In this document: piece by piece, positions 10,897-23,384 of the stretch
How positions within the stretch are numbered: the stretch's first letter is position 1
Layout: each line of letters starts with the position of its first letter
Assembly (NCBI GenBank): GCA_009720755.1
Contig: WNKV01000008.1
Span: 124,001 to 188,000 of the forward strand
Reading direction: 5' to 3'
Source: Rhodoplanes serenus
Lineage (GTDB): Bacteria; Pseudomonadota; Alphaproteobacteria; Rhizobiales; Xanthobacteraceae
Length of the DNA stretch: 64,000 nucleotides
Notes under the pieces: model-generated
What the model was told of the DNA's origin: nothing
Database searches by the model: none
Seen by the model: only the letters and a program-made list of their open reading frames with translations
Program-made: the position numbers and the translations under genes

Positions 10897-10943
10897 CGCA
10901 TTTTCGACGGCGAACCGGCGTCCACTTCGCCGGAAAATGCTCT
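10897..10943. repeat. Dispersed intergenic palindrome (GCATTTTC...GAAAATGC type)
   Basis: GCATTTTC (10898-10905) and GAAAATGC (10933-10940) form the outer arms. GGCGAA (10909-10914) and TTCGCC (10926-10931) form the inner arms. The whole is a 47-base hairpin-forming unit. It resembles the abundant palindromic repeat found between genes in Bradyrhizobium and Rhodopseudomonas relatives; that comparison is from memory. It sits between the DsrE-like and GcvH-like genes, and its edge overlaps the DsrE stop codon. Confidence 0.7.
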
Positions 10944-11319
10944 AGTAGGTCAGCACCCGGCCGTCGCCTTCCATCAGGTCGCGGATCATCGCGGCCGCCC
11001 CCATCATGCCGCTGCATTCCGGAATCAGCTCGTCCTCGGTCATGTCGAACAGATCGAGATTGGCCGGGCAGGCCCAGAACCGCGCGCCCTGCTCGTGCGC
11101 CTCGCGAATCCAGTCGAGCACCGTCTTCGGATGGCCGGGCTTGATGCGGATCGCGGCGGCGACGCCCTGGCGCATCAGCCGTCCGGCGGTCGCCGTGCAG
11201 ACGACGTCGACCTCGTAGTCCATCGCGGCCGCCACGGCCGCATGATAGAACGGCGCGCCCAGCTCCTCCGGATTGCGCGGGTCGGTGTTCATCAGCACGA
11301 TCAGCAGGCGTCGGGCCAC
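10942..11319 (-). CDS. DsrE-family protein
   Basis: From a GTG at 11319, with GGAGA upstream, the product is 125 residues. It has the DsrE/DsrF-like fold: RRLLIVLMNTDPRNPEELGAPF, AAVAAAMDYEVDVVCTATAGRL, and a cysteine-bearing C-terminal half (RFWACPANLDLFDM, PECSGMMGAAAMI). Cysteines are at 41, 84 and 102. DsrE-like proteins take part in sulfur-atom relay, often with TusA. The gene lies 26 bases after the 152-residue gene and co-directional with selB and selC. The TAG stop lies at the edge of a palindromic repeat. A role in sulfur or selenium handling is inferred from family and context. Confidence 0.85.
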   Translation of the reverse strand: MARRLLIVLMNTDPRNPEELGAPFYHAAVAAAMDYEVDVVCTATAGRLMRQGVAAAIRIKPGHPKTVLDWIREAHEQGARFWACPANLDLFDMTEDELIPECSGMMGAAAMIRDLMEGDGRVLTY

Positions 11320-11345
11320 TGTCCGTCTCCGGCCTCCGCGGCGTT

Positions 11346-11804
11346 TCAGAAATCGACCAGCGGCGTCTCGGGCATGTAGCGGTCGAACAGGCTCCAGAAC
11401 GGCGTGCCCCGGCTCTCGACATACCAGCCCTCGAAGTCGGCGAGCGCCGCCTGGGGCGAAGGATCGGGCTCGTCCTCGCCGGTCAGGCTGCGGAACAGGG
11501 CCTGGAGCACCGGCGCGAAGCGCACCGCCACCTCGTCGCGCGCCTCGCTGTCGGTTGTCCAGCCGAGCTTCGCACGCAGCGCCGCAAGGCCGCAGGCCAC
11601 GGCGACCGGCTCGTCCTCGGCGGCCGCCATCGCGTCGGACAAGGCCCGCACCAGGCCGAGCCGCCGGTACGCGAAGGCGCGCTCCTGCTCCAGCGCCGCG
11701 ATGCGCTGTGCCGCCTCCTGGCGGTACTGCCGTTCCGCCGTCTCGGCGTGGCCGGCGGCGGCTTCGAGGGCGCGCAGCACCGGCAGGGTGTCGACGACGG
11801 TCAT
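11346..11804 (-). CDS. Uncharacterised 152-residue protein downstream of selC
   Basis: The ATG at 11804-11802 overlaps the TGA that ends the selB frame (ATGA). This ties its translation to selB or to the selC region. The protein has a helical, charged N-terminal half (about 15-45, RALEAAAGHAETAERQYRQE, then AQRIAALEQERAFAYRRLGL), which may form a coiled coil. An acidic middle follows, then an aromatic C-terminus DFEGWYVESRGTPFWSLFDR. There is no signal peptide, no cysteine except one near residue 71, and no membrane helix. I do not recognise a family. Position suggests a partner of the DsrE-like and GcvH-like products. Confidence 0.65.
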   Translation of the reverse strand: MTVVDTLPVLRALEAAAGHAETAERQYRQEAAQRIAALEQERAFAYRRLGLVRALSDAMAAAEDEPVAVACGLAALRAKLGWTTDSEARDEVAVRFAPVLQALFRSLTGEDEPDPSPQAALADFEGWYVESRGTPFWSLFDRYMPETPLVDF

Positions 11805-13912
11805 GGCACGCTCCGGCTCCGGATGGATGGCGGAAGAGAATGGGAGTCGAACCCACCAGAGACCGGCTCGCGGCCCCTCCCGGATTTGAAGTCCGGACGC
11901 CCCACCGGGGACGATTCTCTTCCAGGCTCCGTCTCGCCCGGATCGGACGTGATCCGGCCGGGCGATAGCACATCGGTCGTCCTCGCGCCCGACCCGAACA
12001 GGTCGAGCCGATGCCTGTTCATGCGCCGCAGATCGCCGCGCCGCAAGGTGACGCCATGGCGATCGAGGAACTCCAGGATCTGGATGGCGACCTTGCGGCC
12101 GTTGTCGAGGCGGTCGCGCAGCTGCGCCGCCGTGAAGGTGCCGTCGGGGCTCGTAGCAGCCACGTCGGCCGCGATGGCGACCATCTCGACGACGGTCTCC
12201 CTCAGGAAGTAGTGGTCGTGGGCGACCTCGTCGACGCGGGCGCTGCGCGCCGACAGCTTGAGGACCCGCCGGACGTCAGGCTCGGGCACCGCCAGCAGGC
12301 CGGCGAGATCGCGCACCCGCGGCGGCCGGAACCGCTCGGCGCCGGCGAGCTGCGGCGCAATGCGCTGCCACAGCCGCTCCTCCGCCTCGCTCAGCCGCAC
12401 CACATGGCCGGGCCGCCGCACCCAGGCGCCATCGAGCGCCACCACGCCGGCCCGCGCGAGGCCCTGGAGCAGCGCCCGGAACGCCGGCGCCGGCAGCCGC
12501 GGCTCGACCTGCATGCGCAGCCGCTCCAGCCCGAGGCCCGGCAGGTCGGGATTGTCGGCGTGAAAGCCGTCGAGGATCGCGCCGAGGCTCCGCGTCAGCG
12601 CCGCGGCGGTGTCGGGCGCCAGCCCGATCTCGCGGTCGCGGTCGGCGATGCGAACGAGGTCGAGATCGGCGGCGAGGCGGTCGCGCTCGTCCGCCGACAG
12701 CGCGTGATCGCGCCCGAACGCCGTCAGGTCGACGAGCCAGGGGGCGCGGCCGACGAGGGCGGCGAGCGCCGCGGCCGGGCTCGGCAGCGCCAGCGCGTCG
12801 AGCTGGGCGAGCCGCTCCGGCGTGCGCCGCTTGCGGGCCGGCGCCCGCAGATCGAGGAAGCGGCCGCCCCCGAGGGTGCGGCTCGCCGAGACGTCGCGCA
12901 GCACGAAGCGGTCGCCGGCCGCGGCGGCGATCGGCCGCTCCAGCACGAGCTGGACGCGACCCTCGCGGCCGGGCGACAGCGGCGCGTCGTCGAGGAGCAC
13001 GATGCGGGCCCCGACCTCGGTGGCGGCGTGATGGAGCCGCACCGGCAGCCATTGGGACACGGCGCGGGTCTCGCTCGGCAGCAGGCGAAGCCGCGCGTCG
13101 ATGCGGTCGGCGGGCGCATGGAGCGCCGGGTCGAGCACCACGTCGCCACGATGGATGGCGTCCTTGGTGATCGCCTCGCCGGTCAGCGCCAGGGCGCAGC
13201 GGTCGCCGGCCCGCCCCGCCTCGGCCGGCCGGTTCTGGGCATGGATCGAGCGCACCCGGGCGGCCAGCCCGGTCGGGCTCACGGTGACGCGGTCGCCGAC
13301 CGCGACGCGGCCGGACAGCACCGTGCCGGTCACCACCGTGCCGGTGCCGGCGAGCGTGAAGGAGCGGTCGACGGCGAGCCGGAAGGCGCCGGCATCGGCG
13401 CGGCGGCCGAAGTCGCGGGCCACGGCGAACAGCCGGGCGCGGAGATCGTCGATTCCCTCGCCGGTCACCGACGACACCGGCACGACCGGCAGCCCGGCGA
13501 GCCCGGTGGGAGCGAGCGCCTCGGCGATCTCCGCGGTCGCCTCGGCGCGGCGCTCCGCCGTCACCAGGTCGGCCTTGGTGAGGGCGACGACACCGTGGCG
13601 GATGCCGATCAGATCCACGATGGCGAGGTGCTCGCGCGTCTGCGGCATCACCCCGTCGTCGGCGGCGACCACCAGGAGCACGACGTCGATGCCGGTCGCG
13701 CCTGCCACCATGGTGTGGACGAAGCGCTCGTGCCCCGGCACGTCGACGAAGCCGAGCACGCCGCCGTCCGGCGCCGGCAGATAGGCGAAGCCGAGCGCGA
13801 TGGAGATGCCGCGGGCCTTCTCCTCCTTCAGCCGGTCGGTGTCGACGCCGGTCAGCGCCCGCACCAGCGCGGTCTTGCCGTGGTCGATGTGGCCGGCGGT
13901 GCCGATGATCAC
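11801..13912 (-). CDS. selB: Selenocysteine-specific elongation factor SelB
   Basis: SelB is the GTPase that brings Sec-tRNA to UGA codons marked by a SECIS hairpin. The GTG start at 13912 overlaps the selA stop (GTGA). G-motifs: [14 protein letters not shown] (4-17), [10 protein letters not shown] (33-42), DVPGHE (57-62) and LTKADLV. Beta-barrel domains follow ([20 protein letters not shown]). A winged-helix C-terminus ends near [17 protein letters not shown] and DLFG at about residue 640, where SelB proteins normally end. Here the frame continues for 63 more codons, right through tRNA-Sec, to a TGA at 11803-11801. So the predicted protein is 703 residues. Whether the tail is made depends on whether selC is cut from the transcript first. 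Confidence 0.95.
11828..11923 (-). tRNA. selC: tRNA-Sec (UCA anticodon)
   Basis: A 96-base tRNA. The acceptor GGAAGAGA pairs with TCTCTTCC and is followed by an encoded GCCA end. The acceptor branch is extended, as tRNA-Sec requires. The anticodon stem TCCGGA-C/TCCGG region holds TCA at 11889-11887. A long variable arm (GGGAGGGGCCGCGAGCCGGTCTCT region) and T-loop GGTTCGACTCC follow. It reads UGA at the SECIS of fdnG. It lies entirely inside the open frame of selB, same strand. The tRNA 5' end coincides with a selB codon boundary (codon 664). Confidence 0.96.
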
Positions 13913-15375
13913 CGGGCGGGCTCCGTGGTGGTGCCGGGGGTCGGCAGCGCCGCGAGCGCGCCGACCAGCGCCGCGTCGTCGTCGAGGCAGCGCAGGTCGA
14001 GCACCAGCGCCCCGTCGGCGACGCGGCCGATCACCGGCACCGGCAGGGCGCGGAGCGCCGCCGCGAGGTCGCTCAGCACCCGGCCGCCACCGCGCACCGC
14101 GCGTGGGCGAGCCGCGAGGCCGGCGCTCGGCACCGTCGCGGTCGGCAGCGCGCCGGAGCCGATCTGGCTCGCGCATTCGACCGCCTCCACCGCGACGGCG
14201 GGACCGAACGCGGCGGCGACGGCGGGCGCGAGGCGCCGCGCCTGCGCCATCACGTCGGCCTGCGGCCGGGCGAGATGCCGGATGGTAGGCAGCCTCTCGG
14301 CGAGGCGGTCGGGATCGCGGTAGAGCGCCAGCGTCGCCTCCAGCGCGGCAAGGCGGATCTTGTCGATGCGCAGCGCCCGCTTGAGCGGATTGCGGTTGAG
14401 ACGGGCGATCAGCTCCTTGCGCCCGACGACGAGGCCGGCCTGCGGGCCGCCCAGGAGCTTGTCGCCCGAGAAGGTGACGAGATCGGCCCCGGCCGCGACC
14501 GCGTCGGCGACGGTCGGCTCCGGCGCGAGGCCGAAGCGGGCGAGGTCGATCAGGCTGCCGGAGCCGAGATCGTCGACCAGCGGCACGCCTCTCTCGCGCG
14601 CCAGCGGGGCCAGCGCGCGCGCCGGCACCGCGGCCGCGAATCCCTCGATGCGGTAGTTCGAGGTGTGGACCTTGAGGATCAGCCCGGTGCGCGGCCCGAT
14701 CGCCTCGGCATAGTCGCGCAGGTGGGTGCGGTTGGTGGTGCCGACCTCGACCAGCCGGGCGCCGGCCCGCGCCATGATGTCGGGCATCCGGAAGGCGCCG
14801 CCGATCTCGATCAGCTCGCCACGCGACACGATGGCGTCGCGCCCCTTAGCGACGGTGTTGAGCACCAACAGCACGGCGGCGGCGTTGTTGTTGACGACGG
14901 TGGCATCCTCGGCGCCGGTCAGCTCGCGCAGCAGGCCGCGGACGTGGTCGTCGCGCTCGCCGCGCCGGCCGGTCGCGAGGTCGAATTCCAGCGCGATCGC
15001 GCCCCGCATGGCGGCGGCCGCCGCCGCGACGGCCGCCTCGGCCAGCACGGCGCGGCCCAGATTGGTGTGCAGCACCACGCCGGTGAGGTTGAGCACCGGA
15101 CGGACGGCAGGGCGCGCCGCCGCGGCGAGCCGCGCCAGCGCCGCCAGCGCGATGCTCTCGGGGCCGGCGCTCTCGGGGCCGGCGGACGCTTCGGCGCCCC
15201 ACGCGGGCGCCGGCAGGCCGTCCCGCAGCGCTGTCCGGATCTCGTCGAGCGTCGCTCGTACCGCGGCCACCGCCGCCGTGCGGCCATGAGCCGTCACCGC
15301 CGCCTCGGCCGCGGCGGTGCGCAAGACCTCGTCGACCGAGGGCAGACGGCGGAGCAGGCCGGCGGCGGCCGTCAT
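13909..15375 (-). CDS. selA: L-seryl-tRNA(Sec) selenium transferase SelA
   Basis: The 488-residue PLP enzyme is full length. It converts Ser-tRNA-Sec to Sec-tRNA-Sec with selenophosphate. Motifs: [18 protein letters not shown] (about 94-111), [12 protein letters not shown] (162-173), [41 protein letters not shown], and [14 protein letters not shown] with the PLP lysine at 306. It overlaps selB by 4 bases and lies 7 bases after fdhE, so the three are one operon. A short GPES duplication at residues 66-74 comes from a 15-base repeat near 15160-15190 and has no evident role. Confidence 0.97.
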
Positions 15376-18229: not shown

Positions 18230-21200
18230 CTACGCGACCGGCCCGGCGACGGGCTCGATGTCGACCAGAAACGCCTTGTACTCCGGCGTCTCGATGTTGG
18301 CGTCGCCGACGAAGGGCGTCAGCGAGTTCGGCCCGAAGCCCTTGCGGGCGGCGCCGGTGAATCCCCAATGCAGCGGGATGCCGACGATATGGACGGTCTT
18401 GCCGTCGCAGACGAGCGGCCGGATGCGCTTGGTGACCACCGCTTTGGCGGTCACCGAGCCGCGTTTCGACCATACCCGCACGGTGCCACCCGGCTTGATG
18501 CCCTTCTCCTTGGCGAGCTGCTCGCTGATCTCGACGAAGAACTCGGGCTGGAGCACCGCATTGGCGTGGGCGTGCTTGGTCCAGAAGTGGAAGTGCTCGG
18601 TGAGCCGGTAGGAGGTCGCCGCGTACGGGAACTCCTTGGCGTCGCCGAACTGCTCCATGTCGTTGCGGAACACCCGGGCGACCGGATTGCCCCGCACCTT
18701 GGGCGCGACCACGTTGACGACCGGCGACTCGAACGGCTCGTAATGCACCGGGAACGGGCCGTCCCGCATCATGCCGCGGGTGAACAGCCGCGACACGCCT
18801 TCCGGATTCATGATGAACGGCCCGACCTCCTCGGGCTTGGCGGTGGGCGCGATGTCCGGCACGTCGTAGCCGGTCCACTTGGTGCCGTCCCATTCGAGCA
18901 GCTTGCGGCTCGGGTCCCACGGCTTCCCGGAGCGATCGGCCGAGGCGCGGTTGTAGAGGATGCGGCGGTTGGCCGGCCACGACCATGCCCACTTGGAGTA
19001 CGCGCCGGTCTCGTCCGGATCGGTGGTGTCGCGCCGCGCCATCTGGTTGCCGGCCTCGGTGAAGCTGCCGGAATAGATCCAGCAGCCGCACGCGGTCGAT
19101 CCGTCGTCGCGCAGAACCGCGAAGCCCGGCACCTGCTTGCCCTTGGCGATGACCACCTTGGTGGGATCGTTGGGATCGGTCAGGTCGGCGGTGGTGTAGC
19201 CGTTCAGCTCCTTGGCGAGCTCCTCCGGGCTCGGCTCGTTCGGGTCCTTGTAGCGCCAGTCCAGATTGACGATCGGCTCGGGAACCGGGCCACCCTCCTT
19301 GCGGTACAGCTCCTTCAGCCGCAGATGGATCTGCGCCATGATCCAGGTGTCGTGCTTGGCCTCGCCGGGCGGCGTGCCGCCCGCCCAGTGCCATTGCAGC
19401 CAGCGCCCCGAATTGACGAGAGAGCCCTCGTCCTCGGCGAAGCAGGTGGTCGGCAGCTCGATCACCTCGGTCTGGATCGCGGCCGGGCTCACGTCGTTGT
19501 TGGCGCCGTGATTCTCCCAGAAGCGCGCCGTCTCGGTCTGCAACGGGTCCATCACCACCAGGAACTTCAGCTTCGACAGCGCGGTGGTGATCTTCTTGCG
19601 GTTCGGGAACGACAGCAGGGGGTTGAAGCCCTGGCAGAAGTACCCGTTCATCTTGCCCTGGTGCATCAGCTCGAAGGCCCGCAGCACGTCGTAGGCGGGA
19701 ACGTCGAGCTTGGGCAGCCAGTCGTACGCGAAGGCGTTGTCGGCGGTCGCCGCCTCGCCCCACATCGCCTTCTGGAAGCTGACGAAGAACTTCCGGTAGT
19801 TCTGCCAGTAGCTCATCTGGCCCGGCCGCAGGGGCTTGAAGCCGCGCGTCGCCATGTAGGCGTCGAAGCTCGGCTCCCGCTCGGTCGGGATCGTCAGGTA
19901 TCCGGGGATCAGGTTCGACATCAGGCCGATGTCGGTGAGCCCCTGGATGTTGGAGTGCCCGCGCAGCGCGTTCATGCCGCCGCCGCGCACCCCGATATTG
20001 CCGAGGATGAGCTGGAGCATCGCCATCGCCCGGATGTTCTGCGACCCCTTGGAGTGCTGGGTCCAGCCGAGCGCGTACATCGACGTCATCGTGCGGGTCG
20101 GCGACGCGCACTCGGCGATCATCCGGGCGATCTGGACGAACTTGTCCTTCGGGGTGCCGCAGATGCGCTCGACCATCTCGGGCGTGTAGGTGGCGACGTG
20201 CTGCTTCAGCAGGTTCCACACACAGCGCGGGTTCTGGAGCGTCTCGTCGACCACCGCATAGCCGTCCGGGCCGATCTCGTAGTCCCAGGTCGAGCGGTTG
20301 TAGTCACGCCGGCTCTCGTCGTAGCCGGTGAACAGCCCGTCCTGATAGGCGAAGCCCTCCTTGACCACATAGGCCGCGTTGGTGAAGGCGCGGACGTAGT
20401 CCCACTGCACCTTGTCGGTCTGCATGCAGTGATTGATGACGCCGAGCAGGAACGCGATGTCGGTGCCCTGGCGGATCGGCGCATAGACGTCGGCGACCGA
20501 CGCCGTGCGGGTGAAGCGCGGGTCGACCACGATCAGCTTGGCGCCACGGTTGGCCTTCGCCTCCGTGACCCACTTGAAGCCGCAGGGATGCGCCTCGGCG
20601 GCATTGCCGCCCATGACGACGACGAGGTCGGTGTTCTTGATGTCGGTCCAAGAATTCGTCATCGCACCACGGCCGAACGTCGGGGCCAGACTGGCCACCG
20701 TCGGGCCGTGTCAGACACGGGCTTGGTTGTCGAACACCACCATTCCGGTGCTGCGCACCACCTTGTAGGTCGCCCACGCCGTCTCGTTGGTCGTGGCGGA
20801 GGCGGCCAGGAAGCCGGTCGTCGTCCACCTGTTCACGGTGACGCCGTCGGCGTTCTTGAGCACGAGGTTGCGGTCGCGGTCGTCCTTCATCAGCCGGGCG
20901 ATGCGGTCGAGCGCCTGCTCCCAGCTCACACGCTCGAACTTGTCGGAGCCCGCCTTGCGGATCTGCGGATAGAGCGTCCGCGTCTTCGAATGCACCACGT
21001 CGAGCAGCGCCGAGCCCTTCGGGCACAGGGTGCCGCGATTGGTCGGATGGTCGGCGTCGCCCTCGATGTGGATGATCTCGGCCTTCTCGCCCTTCTTCAG
21101 ATCGCCCTTGGAGTACAGGATGATGCCGCAGGCGACCGAGCAGTAGGTGCAGGTGTTGCGGGCTTCCGCCGTGTTGGCGAGCTTGAACGGCCGGATCGAC

Positions 21201-21310
21201 GCCGCATGCGCCGCTTCGACATCGCCGAAGCCGAAGGCGCCGAGCGTCGTGCCGGCCACTCCCGCACCGGCGCCGGCCAGAAAGCCGCGCCGCGAGAGCT
21301 CCATGTTCAT
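18230..21310 (-). CDS. fdnG: Formate dehydrogenase-N alpha subunit, selenocysteine-containing
   Basis: The gene is read through an in-frame TGA at 20713-20711, giving 1026 residues with selenocysteine at 200. Flanks NQARV-U-HGPTVASLAPTFGRG equal the E. coli FdnG context. It oxidises periplasmic formate at a molybdenum bis-MGD centre. Features: Tat signal (LSRRGFLAGAG), [4Fe-4S] cysteines 54, 57, 61 and 96, then the molybdopterin oxidoreductase domains (VVVMGGNAAEAHP, GWTQHSKGSQNIRA) and a C-terminal MGD-binding domain. ATG 21310 is preferred because AGGAGG lies 8 bases upstream; ATG 21316 is only 2 bases from it. If the TGA were read as stop, only a 199-residue fragment would form. The tRNA-Sec and factors encoded nearby argue against that. 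Confidence 0.97.
20672..20713 (-). promoter_or_regulatory. SECIS element of fdnG
   Basis: Directly after the UGA (20713-20711) the mRNA can fold a hairpin. GGCC pairs with GGCC around loop AGUCU (20692-20688). A bulged U lies just below, and outer pairs GG/CC and CCGACG/CG-UUCGG extend the stem. Bulged U and a GU-containing loop about 16 bases after UGA are the features SelB recognises in E. coli fdhF and fdnG. The fold was drawn by eye. Confidence 0.85.
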
Positions 21311-21985: not shown

Positions 21986-22228
21986 ATGACATCGGACCCG
22001 ACCATGGAGACGGTGCTGGATCTGCGCGGGCTGCTGTGCCCGCAGCCGGTGCTGCGGGCCAAGAAGGCGCTGCGCGCCGTGCCGATCGGCGGCTCTCTGG
22101 TGCTCGAATGCACCGATCCGCTGACCGTGATCGACGTTCCGCACTTCGTCACGCAGACCGGCCACCGCCTCGTGGCGCAGGAGCGTGTCGCCGATCTCTA
22201 CGTGTTCCGGATCGTCAAGCAGCGCTGA
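21986..22228 (+). CDS. TusA-like sulfur-carrier protein beside selD
   Basis: From the ATG at 21986, preceded by GGGAGAG, the product is 80 residues with the TusA/SirA/YedF fold. [19 protein letters not shown] (11-29) carries the CPxP cysteine (Cys18) that holds persulfide in TusA. It then reads [26 protein letters not shown], a compact beta-alpha unit. It lies 106 bases before selD on the same strand. TusA-like YedF proteins co-occur with selenium use in many bacteria. A role in carrying sulfur or selenium toward SelD is a reasonable inference. The open frame begins at 21833, but its first 50 residues are not family-like. Confidence 0.85.
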
Positions 22229-22334: not shown

Positions 22335-23384
22335 ATGACGGTTCACGATGTCCGCCTCACCAGCCTCGCGCATGGCGGCGGCTGCGGCTGCAAGCTCGCC
22401 CCCGCGGTGCTTCAGAAACTCCTCGCCGGGCAGGCGGCCGGCGGCCCGTTCGAGCGCCTGCTGGTCGGCACCGAGACCGGCGACGACGCCGCCGTCTGGC
22501 AGCTCGATGCCGACACCTGCGTGATCGCCACCACCGACTTCTTCATGCCGATGGTGGACGATCCGTTCGACTTCGGCCGCATCGCCGCCACCAACGCCAT
22601 CTCGGACGTCTACGCCATGGGCGGCCGACCGATCATGGCGCTCGCCATTCTGGGCATGCCGATCGACAAGCTGGCGGCCGACGCGATCCGGCAGATCCTG
22701 GCGGGCGGCGCCGCCATCTGTGCCGAGGCCGGCATCCCGGTCGCCGGCGGCCACTCGATCGATTCGCCCGAGCCGATCTACGGGCTCGCCGTGATCGGCA
22801 CCTGCCGGCCCGAGCAGGTGCGGCGCAATGCCGACGTCCAGCCGGGCGACGATCTCATCCTCACCAAGCCGCTCGGCGTCGGCATCTACTCGGCGGCGAT
22901 CAAGAAGGGGCAGCTTCCGGCCACCGCCTATGCCGAGATGATCGCGTCGACGACGCGGCTCAACCGCATCGGCGCCGAGATCGGCCGCGATCCCGCCGTG
23001 CATGCCGTGACCGACGTGACCGGCTTCGGCCTGCTCGGGCACGCGCTGGAGATGGCGCGCGGCTCCGGCGTGACGCTGACGGCATCGCTCCAGGCGGTGC
23101 CGCTGTTCGCCGAGGCGGCGCAGCTCGTGCAGGCCGGCTGCGTCACCGGCGCCTCGCATCGCAACTGGGCGAGCTATGGCGACGCCGTGATGCTGCCGGA
23201 CGACCTGCCCGACTGGCGGCGCCACCTCCTCACCGACCCGCAGACCTCGGGCGGACTGCTGATCGCCTGCGCGCCGGAGCGCACCGACGATCTGCTGCGC
23301 ACCGTGATCGCGGCCGGCTATCCGGGAGCGAGCCGCATCGGCCATGCCGAGATGGGACCGGCGGCGATCCGGGTGGTGACCTGA
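22335..23384 (+). CDS. selD: Selenide, water dikinase SelD
   Basis: The 349-residue enzyme makes selenophosphate from selenide and ATP. The ATG at 22335 has GGAG 7 bases upstream. The Gly-rich start [11 protein letters not shown] places Cys17 and Lys20 as in E. coli SelD, so this SelD uses cysteine, not selenocysteine. The AIRS-type ATP domain follows: [78 protein letters not shown] and a DPQTSGGLL block. It supplies SelA in the same island and possibly tRNA 2-selenouridine synthesis elsewhere. A palindromic repeat block starts right after the stop. Confidence 0.97.

Follow-up and report, generated by a model that had tools for sequence, protein, structure and literature searches.

In the window (the whole 64,000-nt stretch of Rhodoplanes serenus DNA analyzed here), the reading frame of selB continues through the complete gene for tRNA-Sec, selC, and ends on the start codon of the following gene. 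Judged from this locus and its relatives, selB and selC almost certainly constitute a single nested gene whose reading frame is under selection. Across the relatives the frame is clearly protected against frameshifts, and early stops in the spacer between the two genes are probably selected against.

The locus comprises the following parts, all on the minus strand:

11993..13912, minus strand: selB core, residues 1–640, with the end motif DLFG and with GTP-binding, β-barrel and winged-helix domains (TIGR00475, 400 bits; Pfam SelB domains)
11924..11992, minus strand: spacer of 69 nt (23 codons), stop-free in the selB frame
11828..11923, minus strand: selC, tRNA-Sec with encoded CCA, 32 codons in the selB frame (ARAGORN; Rfam RF01852)
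11801..11827, minus strand: part of the selB frame beyond selC, 8 codons to the TGA
11346..11804, minus strand: gene of 152 amino acids of unknown function, its start overlapping the selB stop
13909..15375, minus strand: selA, its stop overlapping the selB start (Pfam SelA, 534 bits)

The selB frame extends from a GTG at 13912 to a TGA at 11803–11801 on the minus strand and encodes 703 amino acids. These coordinates agree with the initial annotation, which had described a selB frame open to 11803–11801 across all 96 nt of selC. It had also placed the end of SelB proper near codon 640, followed by a tail of 63 residues. This was borne out by the match to TIGR00475, the selB family, which covers residues 1–631 (400.2 bits, curated cut-off 242.25), and by the position of DLFG at residues 637–640. 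The tail consists of 23 codons from the spacer, 32 from selC with its CCA and 8 beyond it. ARAGORN located tRNA-SeC with the anticodon tca at 11923–11828, and the Rfam tRNA-Sec model RF01852 scored 81.8 bits at this position (gathering cut-off 47). The 5' end of selC indeed falls between selB codons 663 and 664, as 13912 − 11923 = 1989 = 663 × 3. With CCA included, selC is 96 nt long, a multiple of three, and its translation reads GRESS...SLPP, with Gly (GGA) as the first and Pro (CCA) as the last residue. The overlap with the 152-residue gene was likewise found as described: the tetranucleotide ATGA at 11804–11801 combines the TGA of selB with the ATG of this gene. Two GGAG motifs are located between the CCA of selC and this ATG.

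The product of the 152-residue gene had no Pfam or NCBIfam match at an E-value of 0.01. When spacer, selC and trailer were folded together, the cloverleaf was present, and the stability was not above that of shuffled sequences (z = −0.65). A scan of 11300–12300 for the sigma-70 consensus yielded no promoter and none in shuffled sequences either, and no terminator-like site was found.

A family search of the surroundings of selABC identified FdoH-like (Form-deh_trans) and cytochrome b subunit-like proteins, FdhE and SelA. The frame at 18230–21310 (minus strand) stays open only when a single in-frame TGA is decoded as an amino acid, in the context DNQARV-U-HGPTV. By recognition, we take this frame to be the formate dehydrogenase major subunit FdoG. 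It is likely a selenoprotein served by the sel system of the window; no match was obtained in a motif look-up for the precise position of this TGA. Divergent from the fdo-sel cluster, a small gene at 22004–22228 (plus strand) is followed by a gene carrying Cys instead of Sec at 22335–23384 (plus strand); from recognition, these are presumably TusA-like and selD-like, respectively. A DsrE/DsrF-like gene (10942–11319, minus strand) lies directly after the 152-residue gene.

For the comparison with relatives, 330 selC or selB loci were collected in draws at the order, genus, class, family and phylum levels and in a scan of named genomes (80 listed of 235). From the order draw we used the 31 matches of at least 62 bits, the window included; the next listed matches reached at most 54 bits and were taken as other tRNAs. 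Seven weak matches from the genome of the window itself (L002–L008) were excluded except in the tRNA control, and one place of the family draw, at a contig start (G1054), was left out. The selB frame reads through selC in 153 of the 330 loci, stops inside it in 16, stops before it in 88 and is open to the contig end in 1. A locus was classed if selB lies upstream on the same strand and its stop was found, which holds for 257 loci. A further 72 of the 330 were left unclassed: in 61 no selB match was obtained, owing to a divergent selB or a short flank, in 6 ARAGORN detected no selC, in 4 selB lies downstream and in 1 it is on the opposite strand. Removal of duplicates resulted in 242 distinct selB-selC loci, of which 143 are read-through loci, 83 stop before selC and 16 stop inside it.

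Within the genus of the window genome, selC was detected in five of six genomes; the sixth, 58% complete, had no selC match. All five, the window genome included, are open through selC in the same phase and stop just past it. An assembly error in the window was rejected because the other four selC-bearing genomes of the genus agree with it. By SelB, three Rhodoplanes records (78–79%) are the closest named relatives among the matches listed. Among the named relatives (80 listed of 235), 51 read through, 16 stop before selC and 6 stop inside it, while 6 lack an ARAGORN selC and 1 carries selC on the other strand. Read-through in this listed set was found in 15 of 16 Mesorhizobium, 12 of 14 Microvirga, 4 of 4 Hyphomicrobium and 3 of 3 Rhodoplanes loci, besides others. 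In Methylobacterium sp. BTF04 (L092), selC lies on the strand opposite to selB, 9 nt beyond the selB stop.

Among newly fetched loci of the family draw, 88 of 117 read through, compared to 2 of 54 in the class draw (26 without a selB match) and 0 of 44 in the phylum draw (20 without a selB match). Read-through is thus frequent among relatives close to the window and becomes rare with distance. It is also dispensable, since selB stops before selC in 83 of the 242 distinct loci, including loci of genera in which read-through is otherwise the rule; in Microvirga, for example, this applies to 1 of the 14 loci among the matches listed. In a small control of 12 other tRNAs, a coding-like frame ran through none of them, versus 142 of 307 selC genes.

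A single phase of selC relative to selB was observed in 142 of the 143 distinct read-through loci, whereas loci with a stop before selC are spread over the three phases (31/30/22). Stops in the other frames of selC were rejected as the cause of the fixed phase, because all three frames are stop-free in 114 of the 143 read-through loci. In the one deviating locus (L165) the frame changes inside the conserved selB core; past this change, a normal SelB end, the spacer and selC share one frame. The 16 loci with a stop inside selC comprise 9 in the usual phase and 7 in another (7 of all 242 distinct loci), which indicates that the frame can be lost. In six loci of one genus, g3 (L230, L234, L235, L263, L265 and L269), the selB frame runs into selC out of the usual phase and terminates there; these natural frameshift variants are useful for testing the loss of the trait. 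Beyond the 3' end of selC, the median distance to a stop is 24 nt in the selB frame versus 395 and 127 nt in the other two.

Spacer lengths were analyzed in 139 of the 143 read-through loci (L112, L165, L279 and L315 were left out). They range from 3 to 147 nt, and every one of them is a multiple of three. Pairs were compared on a SelB tree of 194 loci (at least 50% identity, a match reaching residue 600 and at least 300 residues), 6 of which lack the anchor residue. Where the spacers of disjoint sister pairs are of unequal length, the difference is a multiple of three in 34 of 34 pairs; in control pairs with a stop before selC this was the case in 4 of 15. Since frameshifted loci can leave the read-through class, we corrected for this ascertainment bias with a survival figure: a random frameshift in the spacer leaves selC open in 74% of cases (0.739). 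The share of multiples of three expected given openness is 0.40, and 34 out of 34 then corresponds to P of about 4e-14.

Comparison of the spacers in 63 read-through pairs gave differences at 826 of 3006 sites, and 2.2% of random changes would create an in-frame stop. This yields an expectation, which ignores GC pressure and multiple hits, of about 18 stop gains in the spacer versus 1 to 10 counted. The range in the count derives from the 15 nearest pairs of mixed class, 10 of which combine read-through in one partner with a stop before selC in the other. A single one of these 10 pairs is in phase; in the remaining nine, the stop may have come first and the loss of phase afterwards. The corresponding Poisson probability of the deficit is 3e-7 for a count of 1 and 0.03 for a count of 10, at which the deficit is small.

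The sequence of the tail itself is constrained only weakly, as judged by the mild excess of third-position differences in the spacer (90/102/133 at codon positions 1/2/3, 34 pairs). The part after selC gave 20/24/32 (17 pairs) and the last 100 SelB codons 645/535/1684 (54 pairs). Taken together, the comparison of selB-selC junctions in relatives that the initial annotation had suggested came out in its favor: the frame is conserved and constrained.

Clear purifying selection on the frame implies that ribosomes enter selC and that this entry matters. The selection tests thereby support translation into selC but do not amount to evidence for RNase P cleavage, for a non-stop mRNA or for competition of RNase P with translation. 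How such a frame may be used is described by the model of Mukai (2021), given here with a ribosome-rescue step in our own wording. An uncut transcript would yield SelB with its tail. Folding of the tRNA and cleavage by RNase P at 11924/11923 would leave a selB mRNA without a stop codon. Ribosome rescue tags the products of ribosomes stalled on stop-less mRNA for destruction; ribosomes on the non-stop selB message would stall, and their product would be tagged in this way. One transcript could then give either tRNA-Sec or further SelB, and SelB would be held low relative to its tRNA. That this either/or switch is the reason for the nested, selected frame is a reading we put forward tentatively. 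It is conceivable, though more doubtful, that selection actively keeps selB stop-free upstream of the RNase P site, so that maturation of the tRNA destroys the message. In such a built-in non-stop switch, a single RNA would become either a tRNA or the message for the factor carrying that tRNA. Its genomic signature would be twofold: the kept frame, found also in loci without the known downstream families, and the scarcity of stop gains in the spacer.

Three other explanations were weighed. An open frame that simply happens to persist in GC-rich DNA is plausible for one locus: a random 55-codon stretch of the window in a random frame is stop-free with a probability of 0.57, a shuffled spacer with a probability of 0.63, and none of the three frames of the window's selC contains a stop. 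With openness this probable by chance (0.57–0.63), one locus is weak evidence and the weight rests on conservation. Phase and spacer lengths, however, are conserved over many genera, so the comparison of relatives refutes chance, which we regard as extremely improbable. A harmless tail would account for the conserved frame without any switch or regulation: selB would have lost its stop, and the frame would be kept since the other two frames give hydrophobic stretches. The most hydrophobic stretch of nine residues is indeed lowest in the used frame (mean 0.21 versus 1.26 and 0.94), but mean hydropathy does not single this frame out (−0.75 versus −0.79 and −0.25). With a harmless tail, gaining a stop before selC should be neutral, but the counts given above suggest fewer gains than expected. 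We consider this explanation rather unlikely.

Translational coupling would keep the frame for the benefit of the downstream gene and not for the balance of SelB and tRNA, with ribosomes crossing selC to reach the start codon in ATGA. Homologues of the 152-residue gene occur in 102 of the collected loci, 96 of which are read-through loci. In total, 72 frames of 80 or more codons begin on the selB stop, and 71 of the 139 measured read-through loci contain such a frame. Of these 72, 61 belong to the family of the 152-residue gene and 8 to a second family; the remaining three (L069, L077 and L164) fit neither family and are possibly not genes. Downstream of selC, a member of one or the other family is present in 97 of the 139 read-through loci. 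Coupling is also in line with two Roseomonas species that retain a short SelB extension overlapping ORF2 with no clear trace of the tRNA (Mukai 2021, PMC8124441). On the other hand, the frame is also kept in the 42 of 139 loci in which neither family was found (9 of 9 unequal spacer pairs differ by multiples of three), so coupling to those genes is not the sole reason. In addition, a GGAG, AGGA or GAGG motif lies between CCA and the start of the ORF in 42 of the 72 coupled loci, and with such a motif of its own the downstream ORF could initiate without coupling; the 152-residue gene of the window has one as well (GGAG). Coupling as the reason for the frame seems unlikely to us. On balance, the non-stop switch may be the most likely reason, a view we hold with some reserve, and the harmless tail and coupling are serious rivals to it. 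Should the switch exist, it would set the ratio between a tRNA and the elongation factor dedicated to it with no need for a regulator, by way of RNase P and ribosome rescue.

The nesting of selC in selB has been described in diverse Alphaproteobacteria (Mukai 2021, Int J Mol Sci 22:4605, PMC8124441). In many of these cases the stop of selB and the start of the following ORF overlap, and an either/or model was proposed in which tRNA processing produces a non-stop selB mRNA and lowers SelB. The same paper noted that a tRNA length of 96 or 93 nt may help to keep the frame. The reviews PMC9312934 and PMC13188914 cite this work for the nested arrangement and PMC12685816 cites it in passing; no wet-lab test of the nested selB-selC model was found in the open-licence papers searched. 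With regard to the either/or interpretation of the initial annotation, the architecture and the conserved, constrained frame are in its favor; the balance of SelB and tRNA-Sec corresponds to the published model of Mukai (2021) and is not demonstrated by the frame tests.

A partial overlap of selB and selC, with the stop at selC nucleotides 46–48, was reported for Dyella and Luteibacter (Mukai 2021, PMC8124441). These share the phase of the window, and in both arrangements selB terminates downstream of the predicted RNase P site; unlike in the window, the stop at 46–48 means that the 5' half of selC alone is translated. Among the named loci listed (80 of 235), selB ends inside selC in 5 of 11 Dyella loci. 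A TGA at selC nucleotides 46–48 terminates selB in L281, L291, L015 and L106 as well as in the Dyella loci L073, L090, L099, L109 and L115. Loci with this TGA occur in the family of the window, in Dyella and in one Eremiobacteraeota metagenome-assembled genome and have a similar variable arm. This pattern suggests lateral transfer.

Like the nested genes of Mukai (2021), the window has the whole of selC in the selB frame on the same strand, a selC-encoded tail segment running from Gly (GGA) to Pro (CCA), a stop over the next start and an fdoGHI-selABC neighborhood. It differs in the genome concerned: the word Rhodoplanes is absent from the text of that paper, although its figures may include the genus. 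Both the arrangement and the either/or model are therefore already known, and the window is another case, from a Rhodoplanes-like genome. The published text does not examine phase, spacer length or stop gain statistically. New here is such a quantitative test, which shows selection on the selB-selC frame; the comparison adds measurable selection to the published idea and names coupling and a harmless tail as competing reasons.
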